Shown piece after piece: positions 6,554-35,865 of a stretch of 35,865 nucleotides of DNA. The DNA is from Archaeoglobi archaeon. GTDB taxonomy: Archaea > Halobacteriota > Archaeoglobi > Archaeoglobales > Archaeoglobaceae. The notes under the pieces were generated by a model, which was not told the origin of the DNA, made no database searches, and worked only from the letters and a program-made list of their open reading frames with translations. Both the position numbers and the translations under genes were made by a program. Every line of letters starts with the position of its first letter. Positions within the stretch are counted from its first letter, which is position 1. The stretch lies in NCBI GenBank assembly GCA_029259335.1, contig JAPDIY010000003.1:64725-100589 (forward strand), read 5' to 3'.

Positions 6554-7510
6554 TTAAGCTCCTTTTAGCTCCTTCAACTTCTCAATCAGTTCTGGAACGA
6601 CATCAAAGAGATCTGCAACAACTCCGTAGTGTGCTACTCCGAATATCGGAGCTTCTGGATCCTTGTTTACAGCAATGATGAGTTCGCTATCCTTCATACC
6701 CATGACATGTTGGAATGCTCCGCTGATACCCAAAGCCAAGTATAGCTTGGGTTTTACGACCTTTCCTGAAATACCGACCTGCCTGTCCTTTGGCAACCAT
6801 CCGTTGTCAATTACAGGCCTGCTCCCAGCCACCACTCCTCCAAGGAGGTCTGCAAGTTCCTGAGCGAGCTCAATGTTGGATTCGTCCTCGATACCTCTAC
6901 CGACAGACACTATTATGTCAGCCTGAGCGATATCAACCTCTCCAACTTCAGGCTCTATGTAGCTGATGAACTTCCTCCTTGACTCTTTGGACGGTTTAAT
7001 CCCAGCATCAACGATCTCTCCACCAATCTCAGCCCCCTCCTTGAACACACCCTGTCTGATTGTCAGCACACACGGGGTTGATTTGAGCTTCATATCAACC
7101 ATGAGCTTGCCCTGCATGAGGTATCTGGATACCTTCACTCCACCGCTGACATCCACACCAACAACATCCGTTGCGATTGGGGCATTCAATTTTGCGGCGA
7201 GATATGGCGCAAATTCTCCACCCTGAGCGGTATTTCCTATGAGAATCATGTCTGGTTTCTCTCTTTCGATCAGCTGCATCAAAACGTCAACGTAGAGGTC
7301 GGGAGTGTAATTCTCAAGGCTGTCGTCCTCTATTTTCCATACCTTGTCGGCATACTTTGCAAGCTCTTCGGCATACTTACCGACATCTTTTCCAATCACA
7401 ACAGCCTCACTGCTACCATCCCCTTTAACCTGATTTGCAAGGTTGAGAAGCTCGATGCTCAGCGGATTAAGCTCGTCAAACCTGTATTCAGCAACGCAGA
7501 ACACCTTCAT
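6554..7510 (-). CDS. etfA: Electron transfer flavoprotein, alpha subunit
   Basis: This 318-residue protein has the usual N-terminal ETF domain with ILIGNTAQGGEFAPYLAAKL and the C-terminal FAD-binding domain with VVAGSRPVIDNGWLPKDRQVGISGK, LYLALGISGAFQH and IIAVNKDPEAPIF, the established ETF-alpha signature. With EtfB it forms a soluble heterodimer that accepts electrons from acyl-CoA dehydrogenases. It is the last gene of the beta-oxidation operon, overlapping the etfB stop by one base. No acyl-CoA dehydrogenase lies in this operon, so the donor must be encoded elsewhere; whether the acceptor is a quinone oxidoreductase or a bifurcating partner cannot be told from this gene. Length and motifs are complete. 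Confidence 0.96.
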   Translation of the reverse strand: MKVFCVAEYRFDELNPLSIELLNLANQVKGDGSSEAVVIGKDVGKYAEELAKYADKVWKIEDDSLENYTPDLYVDVLMQLIEREKPDMILIGNTAQGGEFAPYLAAKLNAPIATDVVGVDVSGGVKVSRYLMQGKLMVDMKLKSTPCVLTIRQGVFKEGAEIGGEIVDAGIKPSKESRRKFISYIEPEVGEVDIAQADIIVSVGRGIEDESNIELAQELADLLGGVVAGSRPVIDNGWLPKDRQVGISGKVVKPKLYLALGISGAFQHVMGMKDSELIIAVNKDPEAPIFGVAHYGVVADLFDVVPELIEKLKELKGA

Positions 7511-8253
7511 TATATCAACCCCCTCTCCTTTAGGATCTCAATAAGCTTCTCAGCTATCTGCGATGGATCGCCCTCAATCATCTCAGCCTTCTTGACTGGT
7601 GGCAGATACATCTTTTCGATCTCAAGCGTTGATATGCTCGGAGAGATGCTGACTTCCTTCATTTCCTTTGACTTTGCTCTCTTGATACCCATGATTGACA
7701 CGTATCTCGGCTCGTTGATACCGCTCTGGACAGTAATGACGCATGGAGTTGGAAGTTCAACCTCTTCGAGATATCCGCCTTCCAGTTCTCTCTTTGCAAT
7801 CACCTTTCCGTCCTCAACATTCAGTTCAGCTACTGCAGTTGCGATCGGAAGATCAAGCATTGCAGCGAGCAGAACGCCAACCTGAGCGTTGTTCAAGTCC
7901 TGACTCATCAAACCTGCCAATATCATGTCAAACTCTTCATCCTTAATTGCTTCCTTTATAACCTCTGCAGTCTGGTAGGCATCAAAAGAAGTATCTACAG
8001 GTATCTTTATTGCTCTATCTGCTCCCATTGCAAGGCATTTCCTCAGAGTGTCGTCACAGTTAGTTCCAACACCAACTACAACAACTTCTCCACCCTTGTC
8101 CTCCTTTATTCTTATCGCCTCCTCTACCGCATATCTGTCCCAGTCGTTTATATCGTAAACAAGACCACTCGTGTTGACACTTTTACCATCGCTTGCAACA
8201 CTAATCTCCGATTCTGGGTCGGGGGCATGTTTCGCAAGCACTATTACTTTCAT
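7510..8253 (-). CDS. etfB: Electron transfer flavoprotein, beta subunit
   Basis: A 247-residue ETF-beta protein: N-terminal MKVIVLAKHAPDPES, the nucleotide-binding part VVGVGTNCDDTLRKCLAMGADRAIKI, and GLMSQDLNNAQVGVLLAAML followed by VELPTPCVITVQSGINEPRY, all standard for the family. It binds the second nucleotide (AMP, or FAD in bifurcating types) and pairs with EtfA, encoded next with a one-base overlap. The start ATG 8253 has GGAGGTGG four bases upstream. A 74-base A/T-rich gap separates it from the upstream dehydrogenase/hydratase gene and may hold an extra promoter (TTTTTAAAAATG), so the etf pair may also be made separately. Confidence 0.95.
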   Translation of the reverse strand: MKVIVLAKHAPDPESEISVASDGKSVNTSGLVYDINDWDRYAVEEAIRIKEDKGGEVVVVGVGTNCDDTLRKCLAMGADRAIKIPVDTSFDAYQTAEVIKEAIKDEEFDMILAGLMSQDLNNAQVGVLLAAMLDLPIATAVAELNVEDGKVIAKRELEGGYLEEVELPTPCVITVQSGINEPRYVSIMGIKRAKSKEMKEVSISPSISTLEIEKMYLPPVKKAEMIEGDPSQIAEKLIEILKERGLI

Positions 8254-28667: not shown

Positions 28668-28689
28668 CGAAGTAAATAGGGTATATCGT

Positions 28690-28700
28690 TATTTAAATTT
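28690..28700 (-). promoter_or_regulatory. TATA box of the taw1-translin-tiaS-proC unit
   Basis: Minus-strand AATTTAAATAACG is centred about 27 bases before the taw1 ATG, the spacing of a leaderless archaeal promoter. It nearly abuts the stop codon of the upstream acyl-CoA-dehydrogenase-like gene. Confidence 0.5.
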
Positions 28701-28703
28701 GGC

Positions 28704-29579
28704 TCACTCAGGCAAGTGGCCGTAGAATCTGGAGGTGAAGGGGAAGAAGAGTTCAGAAATTTTTAAATCGTAAATTGAAGATCCTGCAGGGTTTCTATGC
28801 TTTAACTCAGCCAAAGTCCTGAAAATTTCCACTTTAAAGTCCTCTTTGTAGTCATAGAAGCCCTCTTGGAGTAGAACCGCCTCATCAGCAGCCATAACTG
28901 CAGTGCATGCAGCCTTCCAGAGTGCCATTTCTGAGAGAATTATACTCGTCCTATCCGAATCAGCCGAGGTTGAGGCTCTGTACAGCATGAGTTTTGAAGC
29001 CTCAATTTCTGCCGAGATTTCTCCAAGCTTCTCAAAGCAGTGGCAGTAGTCGAATCTCTCATACCCTGCTTTTTCTCTTTCCTTCAGATAGCTTAATACA
29101 ACTTTGAGGGCGTACTTAGCAGTGCCAACGCATCTCGCAGCAAGAAGGATATTCAAAAGCTGAATGTATTCCTTATCAACATCTTTGCCCTCAACAACCC
29201 TAACAACCCTAAGCTCTGCCAGTTCGGGAGTATAGTATCTCCCATCGGCAACAAAGAGCGAAGCTTCCGAATCGACTATCTTAACGTAGCTCCTGTAGGT
29301 AAAATCTGTTACGAGTCTATTCTGCTGGAATGCAAAAGAAGCGTATTCGCCGAAAATATGCTGAGAGATGGTGAAGTAGAGCATCGGTACACCAAAAGTG
29401 GGTTTTGCTGAAAAAATACCCTCAAATACGGCTGAAGCTTCAGAAACTGACAGTTCCGATAGATTGAAGTATCCCAGATCAAAGCCTTTCCTCCAAGCTT
29501 TTAGCAGATCTTCTTCACATTCTTTTTGAGCAAACTCGCTACAGGCCTTTACTATATCTCCGATCTCGTCAGAGTACAT
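28704..29579 (-). CDS. Short, divergent acyl-CoA dehydrogenase-like protein
   Basis: A 291-residue protein whose C-terminal half keeps the helical pattern of the acyl-CoA dehydrogenase fold: LLAARCVGTAKYALKVVLSYLKEREKAGYERFDY, FEKLGEISAEIEASKLMLYRA and EMALWKAACTAVMAADEAVLLQEGFYDYKEDFKVEIFRTL, equivalent to the family's last four helices. It is about 90-100 residues shorter than normal, with loss mainly in the N-terminal and middle beta domains, and I cannot identify a catalytic glutamate or a full FAD site. It may be a non-catalytic partner or a derived enzyme. It overlaps the end of the GMC oxidoreductase gene by 11 bases and ends a five-gene operon. Recognition rests on the C-terminal pattern only. 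Confidence 0.6.
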   Translation of the reverse strand: MYSDEIGDIVKACSEFAQKECEEDLLKAWRKGFDLGYFNLSELSVSEASAVFEGIFSAKPTFGVPMLYFTISQHIFGEYASFAFQQNRLVTDFTYRSYVKIVDSEASLFVADGRYYTPELAELRVVRVVEGKDVDKEYIQLLNILLAARCVGTAKYALKVVLSYLKEREKAGYERFDYCHCFEKLGEISAEIEASKLMLYRASTSADSDRTSIILSEMALWKAACTAVMAADEAVLLQEGFYDYKEDFKVEIFRTLAELKHRNPAGSSIYDLKISELFFPFTSRFYGHLPE

Positions 29580-31542
29580 TTTCCACCTCCGCTATGTGCT
29601 CCGCTGTCCTCGTCGCAAACGCCATTATCGAGATCATCGGATTAACCCTAACACAGTCGGGGAATATGCTCGCGTCGGCTATGTAAAGGTTCTCGAAGTC
29701 GTGAGAGCGACAGTAGGAATTAACAACACCATTGTAAGGCTCAGTACTCATCCTGCACGTCCCCTGCGGGTGGTAGGCAGACCAGATGATCCTGTTCGGG
29801 TGCACGTATCTGATCCTCTCCAGCGTCTCCAAATCCTCTTTCCTAACAATCGGAAAGTCAAGAAAGGGCGTAACGACTTCTTCAGCACCTGCAGCGAAGT
29901 ATATCCTGCAGGTCTCAACCAATCCCTTCATCGCCTTTTGAACGTCCTTGGTTCCAACTTTGTACTGCACCAGCGGCGTTTTTCCCAGCAGGGGAACGAA
30001 ATCGGGCATAGCCAGAACTCTCCCCCTCGAATCATCCTCCCCAATCATCACACCGACCATGGATGCTTTCCTGTAATTCAAAAAGAGTTCTGAAAGCTCC
30101 TTTCCGGCAAGCCAGTTTCCCGCAAAAGCAAGGGAAGGAGGTGCAAAGGTCGTTTCGAGGATTATTCCTTCATCTGCGAATTCCTTAACGGCCAGACTCT
30201 GCGACATCCCTTCCCAGCCGTTCAGCACCTCATCAAAAATTCCCATAACAGCGATAGCAGGGTGAATTCTGAGATTTCTGCCAACCATGCCGCTCGAATT
30301 CGCTATTCCGTTTTTCAGCAGCAAATAAGGTGTGTGAATAGCTCCGGCTGCAAGAACCAGAATTCTGAATTCAGCCACAAATCTTCCGACAACCTGCCTC
30401 TCCCTGTTTAATACCTCTCCTCCAACTTTCGTTATTCTCCTGCCTCTGAACTCCATCCACCTCGCTCTGAAGCCTGTATAAAACCTCGCCCCGTTCTGAG
30501 TGGCTAAGGGAATATAACTCAGATGCATGGCTTTTTTGGCATCAATCGGGCAGCAGAACTCACACAGCCCTAAACCTTCACATCCCGATGTGTTTTTGTA
30601 GAGAGGAAAATAGCTGTAACCGAGTCTTTCCGCTCCGAGAGCAACCTTCATCGCCGCTTCACCGATAAGATTGGCTGAAACCGGATGGACATTGAGAATC
30701 TTCTCAACCCTCCTGAAGTACTTGCTCATGGTTTTCGGATCAACTCCTTCCAAACCGAAATCACTGCTCCATCTCTCAAGCACCTCATCCGGCGTTCTGA
30801 AGCAGGTTCCTTCGTTCACCACAGTTGTTCCTCCAAGAGCGACCCCGGTGGGAAGAAGAATGGAGGGCTGGAAGGCTAATCCGACGGGAGAAATTGTGAA
30901 GGTCATCCCCGCATCCCTGTATAGCTCAGGAGTGACTTTCAGCATCTCTCCTCCGAGCTTATCGCATTCAGGCATAAATCCCTCCTCAATCACAGCCACG
31001 TCAAAGCCCCTCTCCGCCAATTCTTTCGCAACCGTCGCCCCACCTGCTCCTGATCCGATAACGAGCACGTCACACCGTATTCTGACGTCTTTGCCCTCTT
31101 TATAACCTTCAATGACGTTCTCCCTCACGATCTCAGGAGAAAGAACTTTTTTACCCCCAGTACTTATGGAATACTCCATCGCCTTCTCAACATCCTTCCT
31201 TGCTGCATACAAGGCAATTGCGAATAACTTTACAATAACAAAGACCATGCGAAAAATGAAGAATCTGCTCTTTCTCAGCCTCTCAAGCAATCTGAGCCTC
31301 TCGTCAACATCGAGGGATGTGAAGAGAGCTGGCTTTTTCAGCATAAAAATCCTTAACAGCGGAAGGAATTGAAGGAAAATCAGGCTGAGATTGATAGTCA
31401 TACGAATATGCGGTGGGGATCTGCTCAGAAACCTCTCAACCCTTTCATCCACTTCTACGTCGTACCTGGGTAAATTACCCTCTGGTGGAATCAAAGCCTC
31501 ACCTGCTTTCTTCAGAACCTCCAGTCTTTTCTCGCCTATCAT
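29569..31542 (-). CDS. GMC-family FAD oxidoreductase with cysteine cluster
   Basis: A 657-residue flavoprotein. The FAD site CDVLVIGSGAGGATVAKELAERGFDVAVIEEG begins near residue 160, GVALGGTTVVNEGTCFRTP is the GMC signature, and VHPNRIIWSAYHPQGTCRMS with LYIADASIFPDCVRVNPMISIMAFA is the C-terminal catalytic region with its histidine. It belongs to the branch with long-chain alcohol oxidases and bacterial FAD-dependent sugar dehydrogenases. SGCEGLGLCEFCCP near 322-334 has four cysteines placed where related dehydrogenases bind an Fe-S cluster. Residues 50-115 contain two hydrophobic stretches suggesting membrane association. Start chosen at ATG 31542 (GGAG eight bases upstream) rather than GTG 31548. 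Likely substrate: an alcohol group on a lipid or isoprenoid; this is inferred from family and neighbours. Confidence 0.85.
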   Translation of the reverse strand: MIGEKRLEVLKKAGEALIPPEGNLPRYDVEVDERVERFLSRSPPHIRMTINLSLIFLQFLPLLRIFMLKKPALFTSLDVDERLRLLERLRKSRFFIFRMVFVIVKLFAIALYAARKDVEKAMEYSISTGGKKVLSPEIVRENVIEGYKEGKDVRIRCDVLVIGSGAGGATVAKELAERGFDVAVIEEGFMPECDKLGGEMLKVTPELYRDAGMTFTISPVGLAFQPSILLPTGVALGGTTVVNEGTCFRTPDEVLERWSSDFGLEGVDPKTMSKYFRRVEKILNVHPVSANLIGEAAMKVALGAERLGYSYFPLYKNTSGCEGLGLCEFCCPIDAKKAMHLSYIPLATQNGARFYTGFRARWMEFRGRRITKVGGEVLNRERQVVGRFVAEFRILVLAAGAIHTPYLLLKNGIANSSGMVGRNLRIHPAIAVMGIFDEVLNGWEGMSQSLAVKEFADEGIILETTFAPPSLAFAGNWLAGKELSELFLNYRKASMVGVMIGEDDSRGRVLAMPDFVPLLGKTPLVQYKVGTKDVQKAMKGLVETCRIYFAAGAEEVVTPFLDFPIVRKEDLETLERIRYVHPNRIIWSAYHPQGTCRMSTEPYNGVVNSYCRSHDFENLYIADASIFPDCVRVNPMISIMAFATRTAEHIAEVENVL

Positions 31543-31553
31543 CCTCACATCTC

Positions 31554-31961
31554 CTACGCCCTGTTCTTCCGTACCCAGATATACAGCCCAATAAAGATCA
31601 AAGCAAGTGGAAGATCTGTGAATGCTATCACTAGGCTGTAAAAACCACCACCGCTCAGGAAGAACATCAACGCTGTGGCTGAAGAGGATATTTTTGCAAC
31701 AAAAAGAACAAACAGAAATCGCCAGTAGATGGTTATATTTGTCGCTATTAGTGCTGCCAGAAAGGCTATTGTCATCATGTACGCAAAGGTCAGGCTTTTC
31801 CAGAAATTAAGCTCCTCTCCACTCTCGATTCTCAGCATTTTTCCCGTTTCAGAAATGATATTTCCGAGGTTTTCGGGGAAGAGAAGGAAGTAAAACCCGG
31901 CAAGAAAGAAGATAACGAATGATAGCCAGCAAACAGCTTTTGCAACCCTGAACTCAATCAT
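31554..31961 (-). CDS. Four-helix membrane protein, unknown function
   Basis: A 135-residue hydrophobic protein with four clear membrane segments: CWLSFVIFFLAGFYFLLF near 11-28, FAYMMTIAFLAALIATNI near 59-76, FLFVLFVAKISSSATALMFFLSGGG near 83-105 and LPLALIFIGLYIWV near 117-130. The C-terminus VRKNRA is basic and probably cytoplasmic. I do not recognise the family. It lies between the phytoene-desaturase-like gene (18 bases) and the GMC oxidoreductase gene (about 11 bases) on the same strand, so it is very likely part of that operon and may anchor or feed electrons from the flavoenzymes. Confidence 0.75.
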   Translation of the reverse strand: MIEFRVAKAVCWLSFVIFFLAGFYFLLFPENLGNIISETGKMLRIESGEELNFWKSLTFAYMMTIAFLAALIATNITIYWRFLFVLFVAKISSSATALMFFLSGGGFYSLVIAFTDLPLALIFIGLYIWVRKNRA

Positions 31962-31979
31962 GAGCTATGCCACATTTAA

Positions 31980-33275
31980 TCAATACTTAAATTTTTCCAA
32001 ATATCTGTCGATTCTCTCCGCACACTCCATTGCCGACCTGAACGCTATATCCCCTCCATTACCTTCAGCCCTTGTTGTATCACCCGCGAAAAACAGATTT
32101 TCGATTGTTGGACAAACGTAATCCGGCCTTTCGCAGAATGTCTGGCCGGGTTTTGGAATCGCACCATCAACGACTTTGAGATACAGCACCCTTTCCCACT
32201 CTGTTTTGTCTATAATCCCCGGAAACATCTCCTCCAGCCTTTCCTTCATCTCCTCAAGCTTTCTGCTGACATATCCCCTATCGTCCATTTTCTCGTATGG
32301 AAGAGGATAGTAGAAGGTGGCAAGCTGCTTTCCTTCTGGGGCCGTTCTGCTGTAAATGTTTGACGTAAACTGACCCATTATAACCGGCTGGAGGGTAAGA
32401 ATCAGGGAGTCGATGTCCGAAACCCTCTCCTTCAGCGCCAGATCGATGGAGATGCCTGAAGTTGGCTCAAGATTCTCCACCTTCTCGACAAAAGATTTTG
32501 GCAGTAATGATCTGTCCACAATACTACATATATTTTGAAGGGGGAAGGCAGCAACAACGGCCTTTGCTTTAACGAAGTCGTCCCCAACAACTAAACCCTC
32601 TGCAATATTTCCGCTAACCTCGACTCTGCTAACCTCTGCATTCAGCTTTATTTCACCGCCATTCTCGATAATTTTCTTCCTGAGATTATCTATCACATAC
32701 CTCCACCCACCTATGGGGTATCCGCCAGTATATCTGCTTTTCACAGCCTTCTGGGCGAAAGCGGCAGCTTCGCAGAGTGAGGCTTTTCTCATATCAGGAC
32801 ATACTATCCCCGAACCAATCAGAGCTGAAACGAGTCTGTAGATATCATCTCTGTCCGTAACGTCCTTTATAAAATCATGAACTGTAATTTCCACAACATC
32901 TCTCGGATTTACCTTAAGCAGTCTTCTCATCAGCTTCAGCAACGTCAGTCTCGCTCCGAAAGGGACGAGCTTGGTTGTGAGAAAGCCCATAACTCCTTTG
33001 GGAACTTTGTAAAATCTTTCGGAGTAAACAATGGCATTTGAGGAGTGAAACTTAATCTCCAATCCCAATTTTTTGAAAAGTTCCGCCAAAACGCCCTGAT
33101 CGGAAAATCTACATGTGTGTATTCCATAATCCAGAAGAAAACCTTCTCTATCCAAAACTCTCGCCCTCCCACCAAGAATTCTTGATTTTTCAAATACTGC
33201 AACACTGTATTTTTCCGACAGCAGAGCAGCGAGGGAGAGCCCTGCAATTCCACCACCCACAATAGCTACATCCAA
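31980..33275 (-). CDS. Phytoene-desaturase-like FAD oxidoreductase
   Basis: A 431-residue flavoprotein with the dinucleotide-binding N-terminus VAIVGGGIAGLSLAALLSEKYSVAVFEKSRILGGRARV and the C-terminal FAD motif TIENLFFAGDTTRAEGNGGDIAFRSAMECAERI, as in the phytoene desaturase, amine oxidase and protoporphyrinogen oxidase superfamily. In archaea such proteins act on isoprenoids or are of unknown substrate; no carotenoid synthase is present here. The start is an unusual TTG at 33275: GGAGGTGG lies seven bases before it and no better ATG exists. It is the second gene of the operon, 18 bases after the small membrane peptide gene. The double flavoenzyme set with the GMC protein hints at a lipid redox pathway. 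Confidence 0.85.
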   Translation of the reverse strand: MDVAIVGGGIAGLSLAALLSEKYSVAVFEKSRILGGRARVLDREGFLLDYGIHTCRFSDQGVLAELFKKLGLEIKFHSSNAIVYSERFYKVPKGVMGFLTTKLVPFGARLTLLKLMRRLLKVNPRDVVEITVHDFIKDVTDRDDIYRLVSALIGSGIVCPDMRKASLCEAAAFAQKAVKSRYTGGYPIGGWRYVIDNLRKKIIENGGEIKLNAEVSRVEVSGNIAEGLVVGDDFVKAKAVVAAFPLQNICSIVDRSLLPKSFVEKVENLEPTSGISIDLALKERVSDIDSLILTLQPVIMGQFTSNIYSRTAPEGKQLATFYYPLPYEKMDDRGYVSRKLEEMKERLEEMFPGIIDKTEWERVLYLKVVDGAIPKPGQTFCERPDYVCPTIENLFFAGDTTRAEGNGGDIAFRSAMECAERIDRYLEKFKY

Positions 33276-33293
33276 AATGTTACCACCTCCTCA

Positions 33294-33476
33294 TCAGCCG
33301 CGCATGAAGTAGTAGTACGTAGCAACAACACCAACAAGCGCAACTGCCACATCCCCCGAATTCTGAGAGACTACGCTGGTCATGAGGTATAAGGGGGCGA
33401 AGAGCAAGACAGGTATGAAGGAAATGACTTCCAGAAGAATTATAGGTAGCAGTAAGGGTATCAAGATTCCGATCAT
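33294..33476 (-). CDS. 60-aa two-helix membrane peptide
   Basis: The frame MIGILIPLLLPIILLEVISFIPVLLFAPLYLMTSVVSQNSGDVAVALVGVVATYYYFMRG would make a very hydrophobic peptide with two or three membrane helices. Support comes from a minus-strand GTTAAATAATTG box centred about 25 bases before the ATG (a leaderless start) and from its position 18 bases ahead of the desaturase-like gene with which it shares a strand. No family is recognised. The overlapping 71-aa frame in the ORF track has no such support and is a shadow. Confidence 0.58.
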   Translation of the reverse strand: MIGILIPLLLPIILLEVISFIPVLLFAPLYLMTSVVSQNSGDVAVALVGVVATYYYFMRG

Positions 33477-33494: not shown

Positions 33495-33506
33495 CAATTA
33501 TTTAAC
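33495..33506 (-). promoter_or_regulatory. TATA box of the five-gene flavoenzyme operon
   Basis: Minus-strand GTTAAATAATTG is about 25 bases before ATG 33476. It lies only 24 bases from the left end of the insertion sequence, so the element has not separated the operon from this promoter but may have removed upstream control sites. Confidence 0.45.
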
Positions 33507-33560: not shown

Positions 33561-34271
33561 TTGAACAACTATCCACTCTCTTTTATGGTGATGGCGGATA
33601 TAGCAGAAAATAACTTGTTTGAGTTACTGAAAGAGTTTGACATCTTTGAGAGGAACAAAGTATCTATAGAAATAAAACTTGCAGCAATAGCGATGTACTT
33701 ACTCTCCTCAAGTTTTAGAAGAATCGCTTTACTCTTAAACGTTGGTAAGTCAACTGTCCATTACTGGATTGACAGATTCAAGGATGTACTTGACTCCGAA
33801 AGAAAGGAGGAAGTGAAGAAGCTTGCAATATCAAGAATTGCTGTAGATGAAACAATTCTGAAATATAATGGGAAGAAATGCTACCTCTTTGCTGCTTTAG
33901 ACGTTGAGAGGAACAAGGTCATCCATCTGAAGGTTTATCCCACAAGGAATGCTTTGACAGCCTATTCTTTCCTCAGAGAAGTCTTGAGGATGTGCGAAGT
34001 GGAAGAGCTGATTCTCGACAAAGGACCATGGTATAAAGATGCTCTGCAACGCTTGGGTGTTAAATTCAGGCACGAAAGCTTTGGAGAAAGGAGCTTAGTT
34101 GAATCCGTATTTAGCTCTTTCAAGCAAAGGGCTAAGATTTTCTTCTGCTCGATAACTGTTAACTTCAGAAGGAGGGAGAAGAGTGCAAGGTGGAGAAGAG
34201 CTTTAGAGTGTTGGAACAGGTTTTGCAGGATGTTCATGTTCTACTTCAACGTGGTGAGAGGATGTTATTAG
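33561..34271 (+). CDS. IS6-family-like DDE transposase
   Basis: A 236-residue transposase. Near residues 55-75 SSSFRRIALLLNVGKSTVHYWIDRFKD is the DNA-binding helix-turn-helix. The DDE catalytic triad is visible: the first Asp in RIAVDETILKYNGKKCYLFAALDVERNK, the second in EELILDKGPWYKDALQRLG, and the Glu in GERSLVESVFSSFKQRAK, with the GPWY and HESFGER sequence typical of archaeal members. The protein seems full length and undamaged, so the element may be active. The track start (33561) may not be the real one; ATGs at 33585 and 33591 are also available. The stop lies within the right inverted repeat. Confidence 0.9.
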   Translation: MNNYPLSFMVMADIAENNLFELLKEFDIFERNKVSIEIKLAAIAMYLLSSSFRRIALLLNVGKSTVHYWIDRFKDVLDSERKEEVKKLAISRIAVDETILKYNGKKCYLFAALDVERNKVIHLKVYPTRNALTAYSFLREVLRMCEVEELILDKGPWYKDALQRLGVKFRHESFGERSLVESVFSSFKQRAKIFFCSITVNFRRREKSARWRRALECWNRFCRMFMFYFNVVRGCY

Positions 34272-35111
34272 GACAGGTCGGCTTATTTCATCGAAAATTA
34301 CTGCATCTTTAACCCCTATTTCTCCAAGTGTTTTTCTCGCAATGTTGTAAAACAAGACCGCTGGGCTAATGTTACCTCCAGCAAAAATTCTCGTGTAATA
34401 TGTGGAGTTCCTGTATAGGTAAGTTTTGCCTGTTGCTCTTGGGCCGAATTCAATTAAATTGGAGTTTCTTTCGACAAGTGGTATTAAACGGGTGAGTAAA
34501 ACCAGCTTCTGCCTTGTGTCGTAAACCTTCGGATTCAATCCAAGGGTGTTAATTAAGACATCAAGCCACTCATCGAAAGTGAATTCGTCTCTTGCCTCTT
34601 TAAACAGGCCTATATCTGTGAAGGAGCACTGGAAAGGCTGGAAGTCCGCAATTAAAACGGGAGTCATCAGGGGATTTCCATCCCTATCCTTGGGAACGAT
34701 ATCGATAGCATATTTCAGCGTAACCAACCCCCACATTCCCGTGATGAGAAGATTCTCATGCTCTTCAACGAGTTCAAGATCTATCATGCAATCTCTGAGG
34801 GTGAGATTTTCAAGATGAGCTCTGTATGTTTGCCTGTGGATGTCTGTTTCAACTCTCACCTCGTCTATTATCATTATTTTGTCGAATTTCATCAGGTCTG
34901 AGAGTATTTTCTCCCTTTCTTTTGCCTCGTGGTAATATGTAGATATGAACTTCTGCAGTTTTTCAGCGTAGTTATCGCCAAATTTCTCGACGAATCTCGA
35001 TGCGAGGTTCTCTATTACATAACGGGGAAGCATTGTAAACTCCTGCTTGCTGGCTATCCTTTTATCAACGGCAAGATCACCGAAGACTGCTTTGATTTTG
35101 CTTGAGAGCAT
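34203..35111 (-). pseudogene. brxL: brxL-like gene, 3' end lost at the IS junction
   Basis: About 279 native residues remain, ending at base 34276; the frame then runs 24 codons into the insertion sequence. The remaining part matches the N-terminal and early ATPase region of BrxL, the Lon-related AAA+ protein of BREX phage-defence systems: MWGLVTLKYAID, EWLDVLINTLGLNPKVYDTRQKLVLLTRLIPLVERNSNLIEFGPRATGKT (Walker A), FAGGNISPAVLFYNIARKTLGEIGVKDAVIFDEIS (Walker B). The sensor, arginine-finger and Lon-protease-like C-terminal parts of the roughly 680-residue protein are absent, and the left side of the IS does not contain them, so they were deleted. The start is ATG 35111 with GAGGTGA five bases upstream (the track uses GTG 35120). 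It is probably non-functional as BrxL. Confidence 0.8.
34261..34275. repeat. Right terminal inverted repeat of the IS
   Basis: GATGTTATTAGGACA is the inverted partner of the left end. It marks the exact junction with the truncated brxL-like gene. Confidence 0.75.
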
Positions 35112-35112
35112 G

Positions 35113-35865
35113 TCAGTCACCTCTTAATCCTATTTCTGAGAAGAACAAGTCAAAAAACAACTCTGCCTTTTTAAAGACTTTCAAAGCATCTTTGTGAGTA
35201 ATTTTTATTGGTTTTGGATGTACAACAATGTTCCTCTTTTCACGTATAAATTCCAAATCTTTGAACACATCTTCTCCAAACGTGTTTTCAATTTCGGACC
35301 TCAATTCGTTTAGAATTTGACCAAAACTTCTTTCTCCCACTAAGGTCCCCTTTGAAACATGGAACATTAGACCTAAAATGGTCTCCAAAGCTTTTGATGA
35401 TTTTAAAATTATGTCTTTATAGCTATCTTGTGTTAATTTTGGTTTTGAAATAATAGATTTTGCCCTCTCTAACTCTTTTCTTGCCTCTTTTATCCTCCAG
35501 ATCTCATCAGAATATGCCAGAAAAGGGAACTCTTTTTTGAGAGCTTTTTCTGCGTTTTTTCTTATATTTTCCCACTCTTCGTTAAACTCGTCTCTATCTA
35601 TCCCGACTACATCTAAGAACTCTTGAACACTCAATACAATATCTTCGCCAGATTCATCTAAGATTTCCTTTATTAATTTCCATATTTCATCTTTTCTGAG
35701 GCGATACATCAATGGATCGACCACAATGAACTTTGAGAGCCTTTTAATGTTTGAATCCGCGTTTAACTTTTCTAAAATTGATTTTGCATTAATTTTTAGA
35801 ACCCAAATGTCTTCTCCTGAAAAAACAGTTGGGGTAAAAACTAATTCGAAAATTCTCCAACCCTC
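35113..35865 (-). CDS. HEPN-motif protein upstream of brxL (5' end outside window)
   Basis: The ORF track shows 203 residues from a GTG at 35724, but the frame stays open to the window edge (GWRIFELVFTPTVFSGEDIWVLKINAKS...), so this is a partial gene of at least 250 codons. The C-terminal region SSKALETILGLMFHVSKGTLVG...LEFIREKRNIVVHPKPIKITHKDALKVFKKAELFFDLFF is helical and carries R-N-I-V-V-H, the R-x4-H signature of HEPN-fold RNases, followed by the helix typical of that fold. HEPN proteins are frequent in antiviral and toxin systems. Its stop overlaps the brxL ribosome binding region and brxL begins two bases after it, so the two were cotranscribed. The N-terminal part is not recognised. 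No frameshift is visible. Confidence 0.65.
   Translation of the reverse strand, partial: EGWRIFELVFTPTVFSGEDIWVLKINAKSILEKLNADSNIKRLSKFIVVDPLMYRLRKDEIWKLIKEILDESGEDIVLSVQEFLDVVGIDRDEFNEEWENIRKNAEKALKKEFPFLAYSDEIWRIKEARKELERAKSIISKPKLTQDSYKDIILKSSKALETILGLMFHVSKGTLVGERSFGQILNELRSEIENTFGEDVFKDLEFIREKRNIVVHPKPIKITHKDALKVFKKAELFFDLFFSEIGLRGD

Follow-up and report, generated by a model that had tools for sequence, protein, structure and literature searches.

A rare gene trio in Archaeoglobus relatives: a GMC oxidoreductase encoded with a membrane protein and a shortened acyl-CoA dehydrogenase-like protein

The described enzymes closest to the locus considered here are the flavin adenine dinucleotide (FAD) glucose dehydrogenase of B. 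cepacia (6A2U) and the fructose dehydrogenase (7W2J), with which it shares the GMC fold, a catalytic His and an aligned Cys triad. In 6A2U, the crystallographic ligands of the 3Fe-4S cluster are Cys212, Cys218 and Cys222, the adjacent Cys213 being a non-ligand (PMC6719666). The locus lies in a 35,865-nucleotide (nt) stretch from an Archaeoglobi archaeon (GCA_029259335.1, contig JAPDIY010000003.1, positions 64,725 to 100,589; hereafter the window, whose Archaeoglobus-type genome is designated G000) and consists of five open reading frames (ORFs), all on the minus strand, between positions 33476 and 28704. Three of them, encoding a four-helix (4-TM) membrane protein, a GMC oxidoreductase and a short acyl-CoA dehydrogenase (ACAD)-like protein, form a rare yet strongly conserved gene set in hot-environment archaea, relatives of Archaeoglobus. 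The other two encode a phytoene desaturase (PDS)-like flavoenzyme and a hydrophobic peptide of 60 amino acids (aa).

Membrane-associated electron transfer, as in the 6A2U and 7W2J complexes, may be expected of the trio as well, but its composition differs from theirs: the multi-heme c membrane subunit is missing and no cassette protein has a CxxCH motif, the GMC N-terminus shows no twin-arginine translocation (TAT)-type signal and is occupied by a fused domain, the membrane partner is the heme-free 4-TM protein, and an ACAD-derived subunit is added. Domain order and Cys motif are also those of a Streptomyces chartreusis GMC protein (L099:5548-7473), at an identity of about 34%. Plant and yeast long-chain fatty alcohol oxidases are GMC enzymes with a fused hydrophobic N-terminal domain too; O2, the acceptor of these oxidases, is unlikely to serve as such in strict anaerobes. 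The short ACAD-like protein recalls the non-catalytic IpdE2/FadE-type partners of the heteromeric ACADs of steroid degradation, in which the ACAD fold is kept and catalytic features are lost, but the present protein lacks the entire FAD middle domain and has a GMC gene rather than a second ACAD as its gene partner; its IpdE2 score is 13.9 against a 450-bit cut-off. Each enzyme family is already known. A literature search, with most subscription journals outside its reach, did not find a description of the combination, a predicted Fe-S GMC enzyme carrying a fused N-terminal domain with a heme-free membrane partner and an FAD-less ACAD-derived subunit, and searches pairing Archaeoglobus with GMC oxidoreductase, or with long-chain alcohol or beta-oxidation, returned nothing.

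Gene order and distribution of the trio

The three genes of the core are the following.

28704..29579, minus strand: short ACAD-like protein, 291 aa, matching only the C-terminal domain of acyl-CoA dehydrogenases
29569..31548, minus strand: GMC oxidoreductase, 659 aa, GTG start, core subunit (PF00732, E 9.6e-39; PF05199, E 2.6e-23)
31554..31961, minus strand: 4-TM membrane protein, 135 aa, recognised by hydropathy, of no known family and with neither CxxCH nor His

Of 57 Archaeoglobales genomes, exactly five carry the 4-TM gene, namely G000, G007 (taken as UBA230), G013 (taken as JdFR-41), G026 and G072 (taken as WYZ-LMO2), and in all five the order 4-TM, GMC, short ACAD is collinear, with genes that overlap or nearly abut. 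The trio is absent from the other 52, and no additional copy of the 4-TM gene was found among 394 genomes sampled across the phylum. GMC orthologues are 83, 60, 52 and 54% identical to the window protein in the four other trio genomes, and a genome of another class, G189, encodes a GMC protein that is 50% identical over nearly its full length, next to an overlapping ACAD-like gene; it is the only one of the 58 genomes of its class to have the GMC gene. The GMC and ACAD genes overlap in all six genomes. The contig scan, with its narrow peptide patterns, gave three loci; G189 came from the whole-genome search, and the bacterial sampling was of plasmids only. This distribution indicates that the association of GMC and ACAD-like genes is the deepest one, that the 4-TM gene is a constant member in Archaeoglobales, and that the PDS-like gene is optional. 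The five genes are not a single functional set, and the core is made up of the 4-TM, GMC and short ACAD genes.

An earlier note, made from the letters of the window, had reported five tightly packed ORFs at these coordinates, and so they are: 18 nt separate the peptide gene from the PDS-like gene, 18 nt the PDS-like gene from the 4-TM gene and 5 nt the 4-TM gene from the GMC gene, which overlaps the ACAD gene by 11 nt. The ratio of nonsynonymous to synonymous substitution rates (dN/dS) against the G007 orthologues is 0.042 for the peptide, 0.049 for the PDS-like enzyme, 0.067 for the 4-TM protein, 0.039 for GMC and 0.087 for the short ACAD, with 0.052 for the adjoining tRNA-modification gene tyw1 for comparison; such values (0.04-0.09) point to purifying selection on all five, which are therefore real genes and not a chance run of ORFs. 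The note had further proposed a five-gene operon behind one promoter, and called for a neighbourhood survey of a desaturase-GMC-ACAD set. In this grouping, the peptide does not belong with the other four genes; being present throughout the genus, mostly without them, it rules out one module of all five. The survey bore out the collinear trio and the GMC-ACAD coupling in the distant G189, while linkage to the desaturase is weaker, being confined to two Archaeoglobales genomes and G189.

Features of the encoded proteins

Both Pfam domains of the GMC protein, GMC_oxred_N and GMC_oxred_C, score above cut-off, which places it in the GMC superfamily, and its FAD motif GSGAGG is invariant across the orthologues. 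The following sites and regions bear on its function.

29770..29772, minus strand: catalytic His593 (HPQGTCRM), invariant, aligned with the GMC catalytic motif
29641..29643, minus strand: Asn636 of the catalytic pair (VNPM), invariant
30550..30582, minus strand: Cys323-x5-Cys329-x3-Cys333, predicted 3Fe-4S ligands, in the alignment columns of Cys212/218/222 in 6A2U
31135..31548, minus strand: N-terminal domain, residues 1-138

The Cys triad is present in all nine homologues inspected, including the Streptomyces GMC with its fused N-terminal domain and an Alteromonas GMC, and Glu324 takes the position of the non-ligand Cys213 of 6A2U. In choline oxidase, which the same search aligned, the triad positions hold no cysteines. 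Since the C-x5-C-x3-C spacing is not rare, occurring also in ferredoxin-type proteins of the window, the argument for an Fe-S cluster rests on the aligned position. With the triad of the bacterial FAD glucose dehydrogenase kept, the GMC protein is probably an electron-transferring dehydrogenase, as far as its sequence can tell.

The hydrophobic N-terminal segments that had been noticed earlier in the GMC protein are there, at residues 52-70 and 96-114 by hydropathy. This N-terminal domain resembles that of the Streptomyces GMC (hhalign E 4e-5), a protein which in turn has a weak match to Gluconate_2-dh3 (E 0.013, below cut-off), and the direct match of the domain to the Gluconate_2-dh3 protein of Alteromonas is weak. 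In Alteromonas, a separate Gluconate_2-dh3 gene lies just 5' of the GMC gene and an aldehyde dehydrogenase gene follows it. In another genome, G202 (L095:11823-14045), a GMC gene with this Cys motif is followed by one for a DUF362 protein; the membrane segment at the N-terminus of the latter is similar to a 126-aa membrane protein encoded near the G189 GMC gene (L094:5317-5697; 27% over 117 aa).

The earlier note had described a shortened ACAD-like protein; shortened it is, and it is probably no longer an enzyme. Compared with eight full-length ACADs, it has neither the middle domain nor the FAD motif TEPxAGSD, and it lacks HGG and the catalytic EGTxE region as well, the last being replaced by a conserved tail, HRNPxxSSIYDLKISEL, which is common to the G189 protein. 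The FAD middle domain is missing in all five Archaeoglobales ACAD-like proteins (about 284-308 aa), and the 400-aa protein of G189 retains the middle region without a PF02770 match and with the TEPxAGSD, HGG and EGTxE motifs gone. The G189 form and the Archaeoglobales forms look like successive stages in a loss of catalysis in which both helical domains were retained. Loss of the FAD domain, of the FAD motifs and of the catalytic Glu suggests a probably non-catalytic subunit, and an overlap with the GMC gene in six genomes makes a structural or docking role beside GMC the simplest reading. The AlphaFold2 model, of moderate confidence (predicted local distance difference test, pLDDT, 67), confirms an ACAD-like fold and nothing more.

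No credible family match exists for the 4-TM protein; Rer1 was set aside with an E-value of 0.018, below cut-off.

Proposed reaction and competing explanations

The trio is tentatively read, at a confidence somewhat short of even, as an Fe-S GMC dehydrogenase attached to the membrane, which oxidizes long-chain or isoprenoid alcohols and feeds quinone or the electron-transfer flavoprotein (ETF). Gene order, conservation, catalytic residues, the Cys triad and the loss of ACAD motifs are the parts of this reading taken from sequence; substrate, acceptor, direction, Fe-S content and complex formation are inferred. The core would be a three-subunit enzyme facing the cytoplasm, in which GMC would convert a hydrophobic primary alcohol into the aldehyde by means of FAD and the His593/Asn636 pair. 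Electrons would leave FAD through a surface 3Fe-4S cluster at Cys323, Cys329 and Cys333, as in the bacterial FAD glucose dehydrogenase, making oxygen unnecessary as an acceptor, which would suit strict anaerobes. The 4-TM protein and the hydrophobic N-terminal domain of GMC would anchor the enzyme at the membrane, where electrons might pass to menaquinone either directly or via ETF, and the ACAD-like subunit, co-translated and having lost FAD and catalysis, would be retained for scaffolding or docking. The aldehyde could then be oxidized further and, as a CoA ester, enter beta-oxidation. The PDS-like enzyme would be an optional partner with the same isoprenoid-type substrates, with the 60-aa peptide standing outside the system. 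A more specific proposal, which we regard as quite improbable, is that the FAD-less ACAD-like subunit keeps an ETF-docking surface and acts as an adaptor between the GMC 3Fe-4S cluster and ETF, through which the alcohol dehydrogenase feeds the beta-oxidation electron pool.

Genomic context is what directs this reading toward lipids. G026 and G072 have, divergent to the trio, an operon encoding two SCP2-type lipid carriers, a full-length ACAD, an acyl-CoA ligase and an SRPBCC lipid-binding protein, and the window itself carries genes for ETF (6554-8253) and, for beta-oxidation, hydroxyacyl-CoA dehydrogenase/hydratase and thiolase; taken together, these genes are best fitted by oxidation of long-chain or isoprenoid alcohols toward beta-oxidation. 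The aldehyde dehydrogenase gene behind the Alteromonas GMC gene also counts in favour of the reading. The lipid redox role proposed in the earlier note stays plausible, in a form altered by the putative 3Fe-4S triad of GMC and by an ACAD-like protein that is probably not an enzyme. Among the 57 genomes, only G026 and G072 have the 205-aa SCP2 gene in three full-length copies. The operon next to the trio is the third paralogous SCP2/ACAD/acyl-CoA-ligase operon (L048:10964-15571, L051:2939-7544), restricted within the genus to these two trio-bearing genomes; SCP2 operons as a general marker of the trio were rejected, paralogues being present in most Archaeoglobus genomes without it. In JdFR-41, separated from the trio by one gene (L047:13015-19501), there is a SnoaL-like gene, followed by two large hydantoinase/acetone-carboxylase-like genes and an acyl-CoA-synthetase-like gene, a possible ketone degradation cluster whose genes, except SnoaL, are named by appearance.

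Several points weigh against the alcohol dehydrogenase reading. The SCP2 neighbourhood is that of just two genomes, both in the same genus, and no lipid gene directly adjoins the trio in G013. Sugars are the substrates of the solved Fe-S GMC relatives. The Fe-S site is predicted from sequence alignment, the AlphaFold2 model of GMC, built from 4 sequences, having been discarded at a pLDDT of 34. No cofactor or quinone motif can be recognised in the 4-TM protein, and the view of the GMC N-terminal domain as a fused counterpart of the small hitchhiker (gamma) subunit of the glucose and fructose dehydrogenase complexes is a weak one, held with moderate to low confidence.

Two of the rival explanations concern the PDS-like enzyme.

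31980..33275, minus strand: PDS-like FAD oxidoreductase, 431 aa, TTG start, optional partner (PF01593, E 6.5e-27)

It shares the FAD motif and domain of the amine-oxidase/phytoene-desaturase superfamily, to which HpnE also belongs, and PF01593 assigns it to that superfamily and no further, because its scores lie below every curated subfamily cut-off (63 against 238 bits for crtI_fam, 68 against 283 bits for HpnE). Carotenoid biosynthesis was dropped for that reason, and the closest solved relatives, 3NRN and 3KA7, have PDB titles that give no specific function. Of the 57 Archaeoglobales genomes, only G000 and G007 have this gene. It is a real possibility that only the trio is a unit and that the PDS-like enzyme is a mere neighbour sharing the transcript in two sister genomes, as three of the five Archaeoglobales trio loci lack it and JdFR-41 has only a 31% relative, on a separate contig and among unrelated neighbours. 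Opposed to this are G189, where a PDS-like gene lies 1.8 kb from GMC and is closer to that of the window (35% identity) than the JdFR-41 copy (29%), and a deletion scar in G003, described below, in which the PDS-like gene and the trio formed one cassette as well.

If the PDS-like enzyme were instead the main actor, the locus would be a biosynthetic module for modification of isoprenoid lipids or menaquinone tails (desaturation, saturation or removal of hydroxyl groups), without alcohol degradation. A superfamily that includes isoprenoid desaturases and HpnE and two membrane proteins compatible with a lipid substrate are in accord with it, but it is rather unlikely, as a core lipid would hardly go with patchy presence (5 of 57 genomes) and with loss in G003, the trio occurs without the PDS-like gene, the subfamily scores are far too low, and the neighbour genes in G026 and G072 are of the degradation type. 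Oxidation of a sugar, a polyol or another polar alcohol would follow the example of glucose and fructose dehydrogenase, the GMC relatives of solved structure that have the aligned triad, but is unlikely: no sugar genes stand beside the trio, which co-occurs with ACAD-derived, SCP2 and acyl-CoA-ligase genes, and the likeness to the sugar enzymes is distant and limited to short stretches.

If the alcohol dehydrogenase reading is true, strictly anaerobic archaea of hot environments own an oxygen-independent membrane enzyme dedicated to hydrophobic alcohols, working by a GMC Fe-S chemistry otherwise found mainly in the sugar dehydrogenases of bacteria, and the locus clearly exemplifies the reduction of an acyl-CoA dehydrogenase to a structural subunit; an ETF adaptor would be a new use for such an inactivated enzyme. 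Fe-S GMC enzymes serve in biosensors because of direct electron transfer to electrodes, and a heat-stable, lipid-acting one would be of practical interest there.

The upstream peptide, promoters and flanking genes

The remaining features concern the limits of the transcript.

33294..33476, minus strand: 60-aa hydrophobic peptide, present in all 8 Archaeoglobus genomes, most of which lack the cassette
33498..33505, minus strand: TATA-like box TTAAATAA, 22-29 nt 5' of the peptide ATG
28689..28697, minus strand: box TTTAAATAA 5' of tyw1, at the downstream limit of the cassette

The peptide had been taken for a member of the operon, which its conservation in all Archaeoglobus genomes refutes: it is a separate genus-wide gene and no part of the cassette function despite the probably shared promoter. 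It is the first gene of the probable transcript, and its promoter probably drives the cassette in the window genome; an internal promoter 5' of the 4-TM gene may exist. The TATA-like box stands at the same position in the seven genomes whose copies were inspected. The box of tyw1 is identical in the window and G007 and retained in the G003 scar, and with tyw1 having its own conserved box, the transcription unit plausibly stops after ACAD. Elsewhere, the peptide (33294-33476; L109-L114), with its conserved leaderless-type promoter, has trm5-like, thi4-like or tyw1 genes as neighbours depending on the genome; it precedes a thi4-like gene, so named from sequence appearance, in four genomes, and in G006 tyw1 follows it directly.

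In G003, the stretch between an intact peptide gene and an intact tyw1 holds three fragments in their original order, one of 46 nt from the beginning of the PDS-like gene and two from the end of the ACAD-like gene, which score 62.6, 31.9 and 144 bits against a best of 29.2 among 200 shuffled cassettes. These fragments indicate that the four-gene cassette was formerly there and was lost by deletions, with the peptide and tyw1 being retained.

Directly upstream of the cassette promoter in the window, there is a transposase gene with an IS240-type DDE domain (33561-34271), whose end overlaps brxL (34203-35120), a BREX defence gene shortened after about 280 aligned residues and probably broken by the transposase insertion. 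Beside it, at 35113-35724, a protein with weak DUF4145/HEPN similarity is encoded, a possible remnant of a defence gene.

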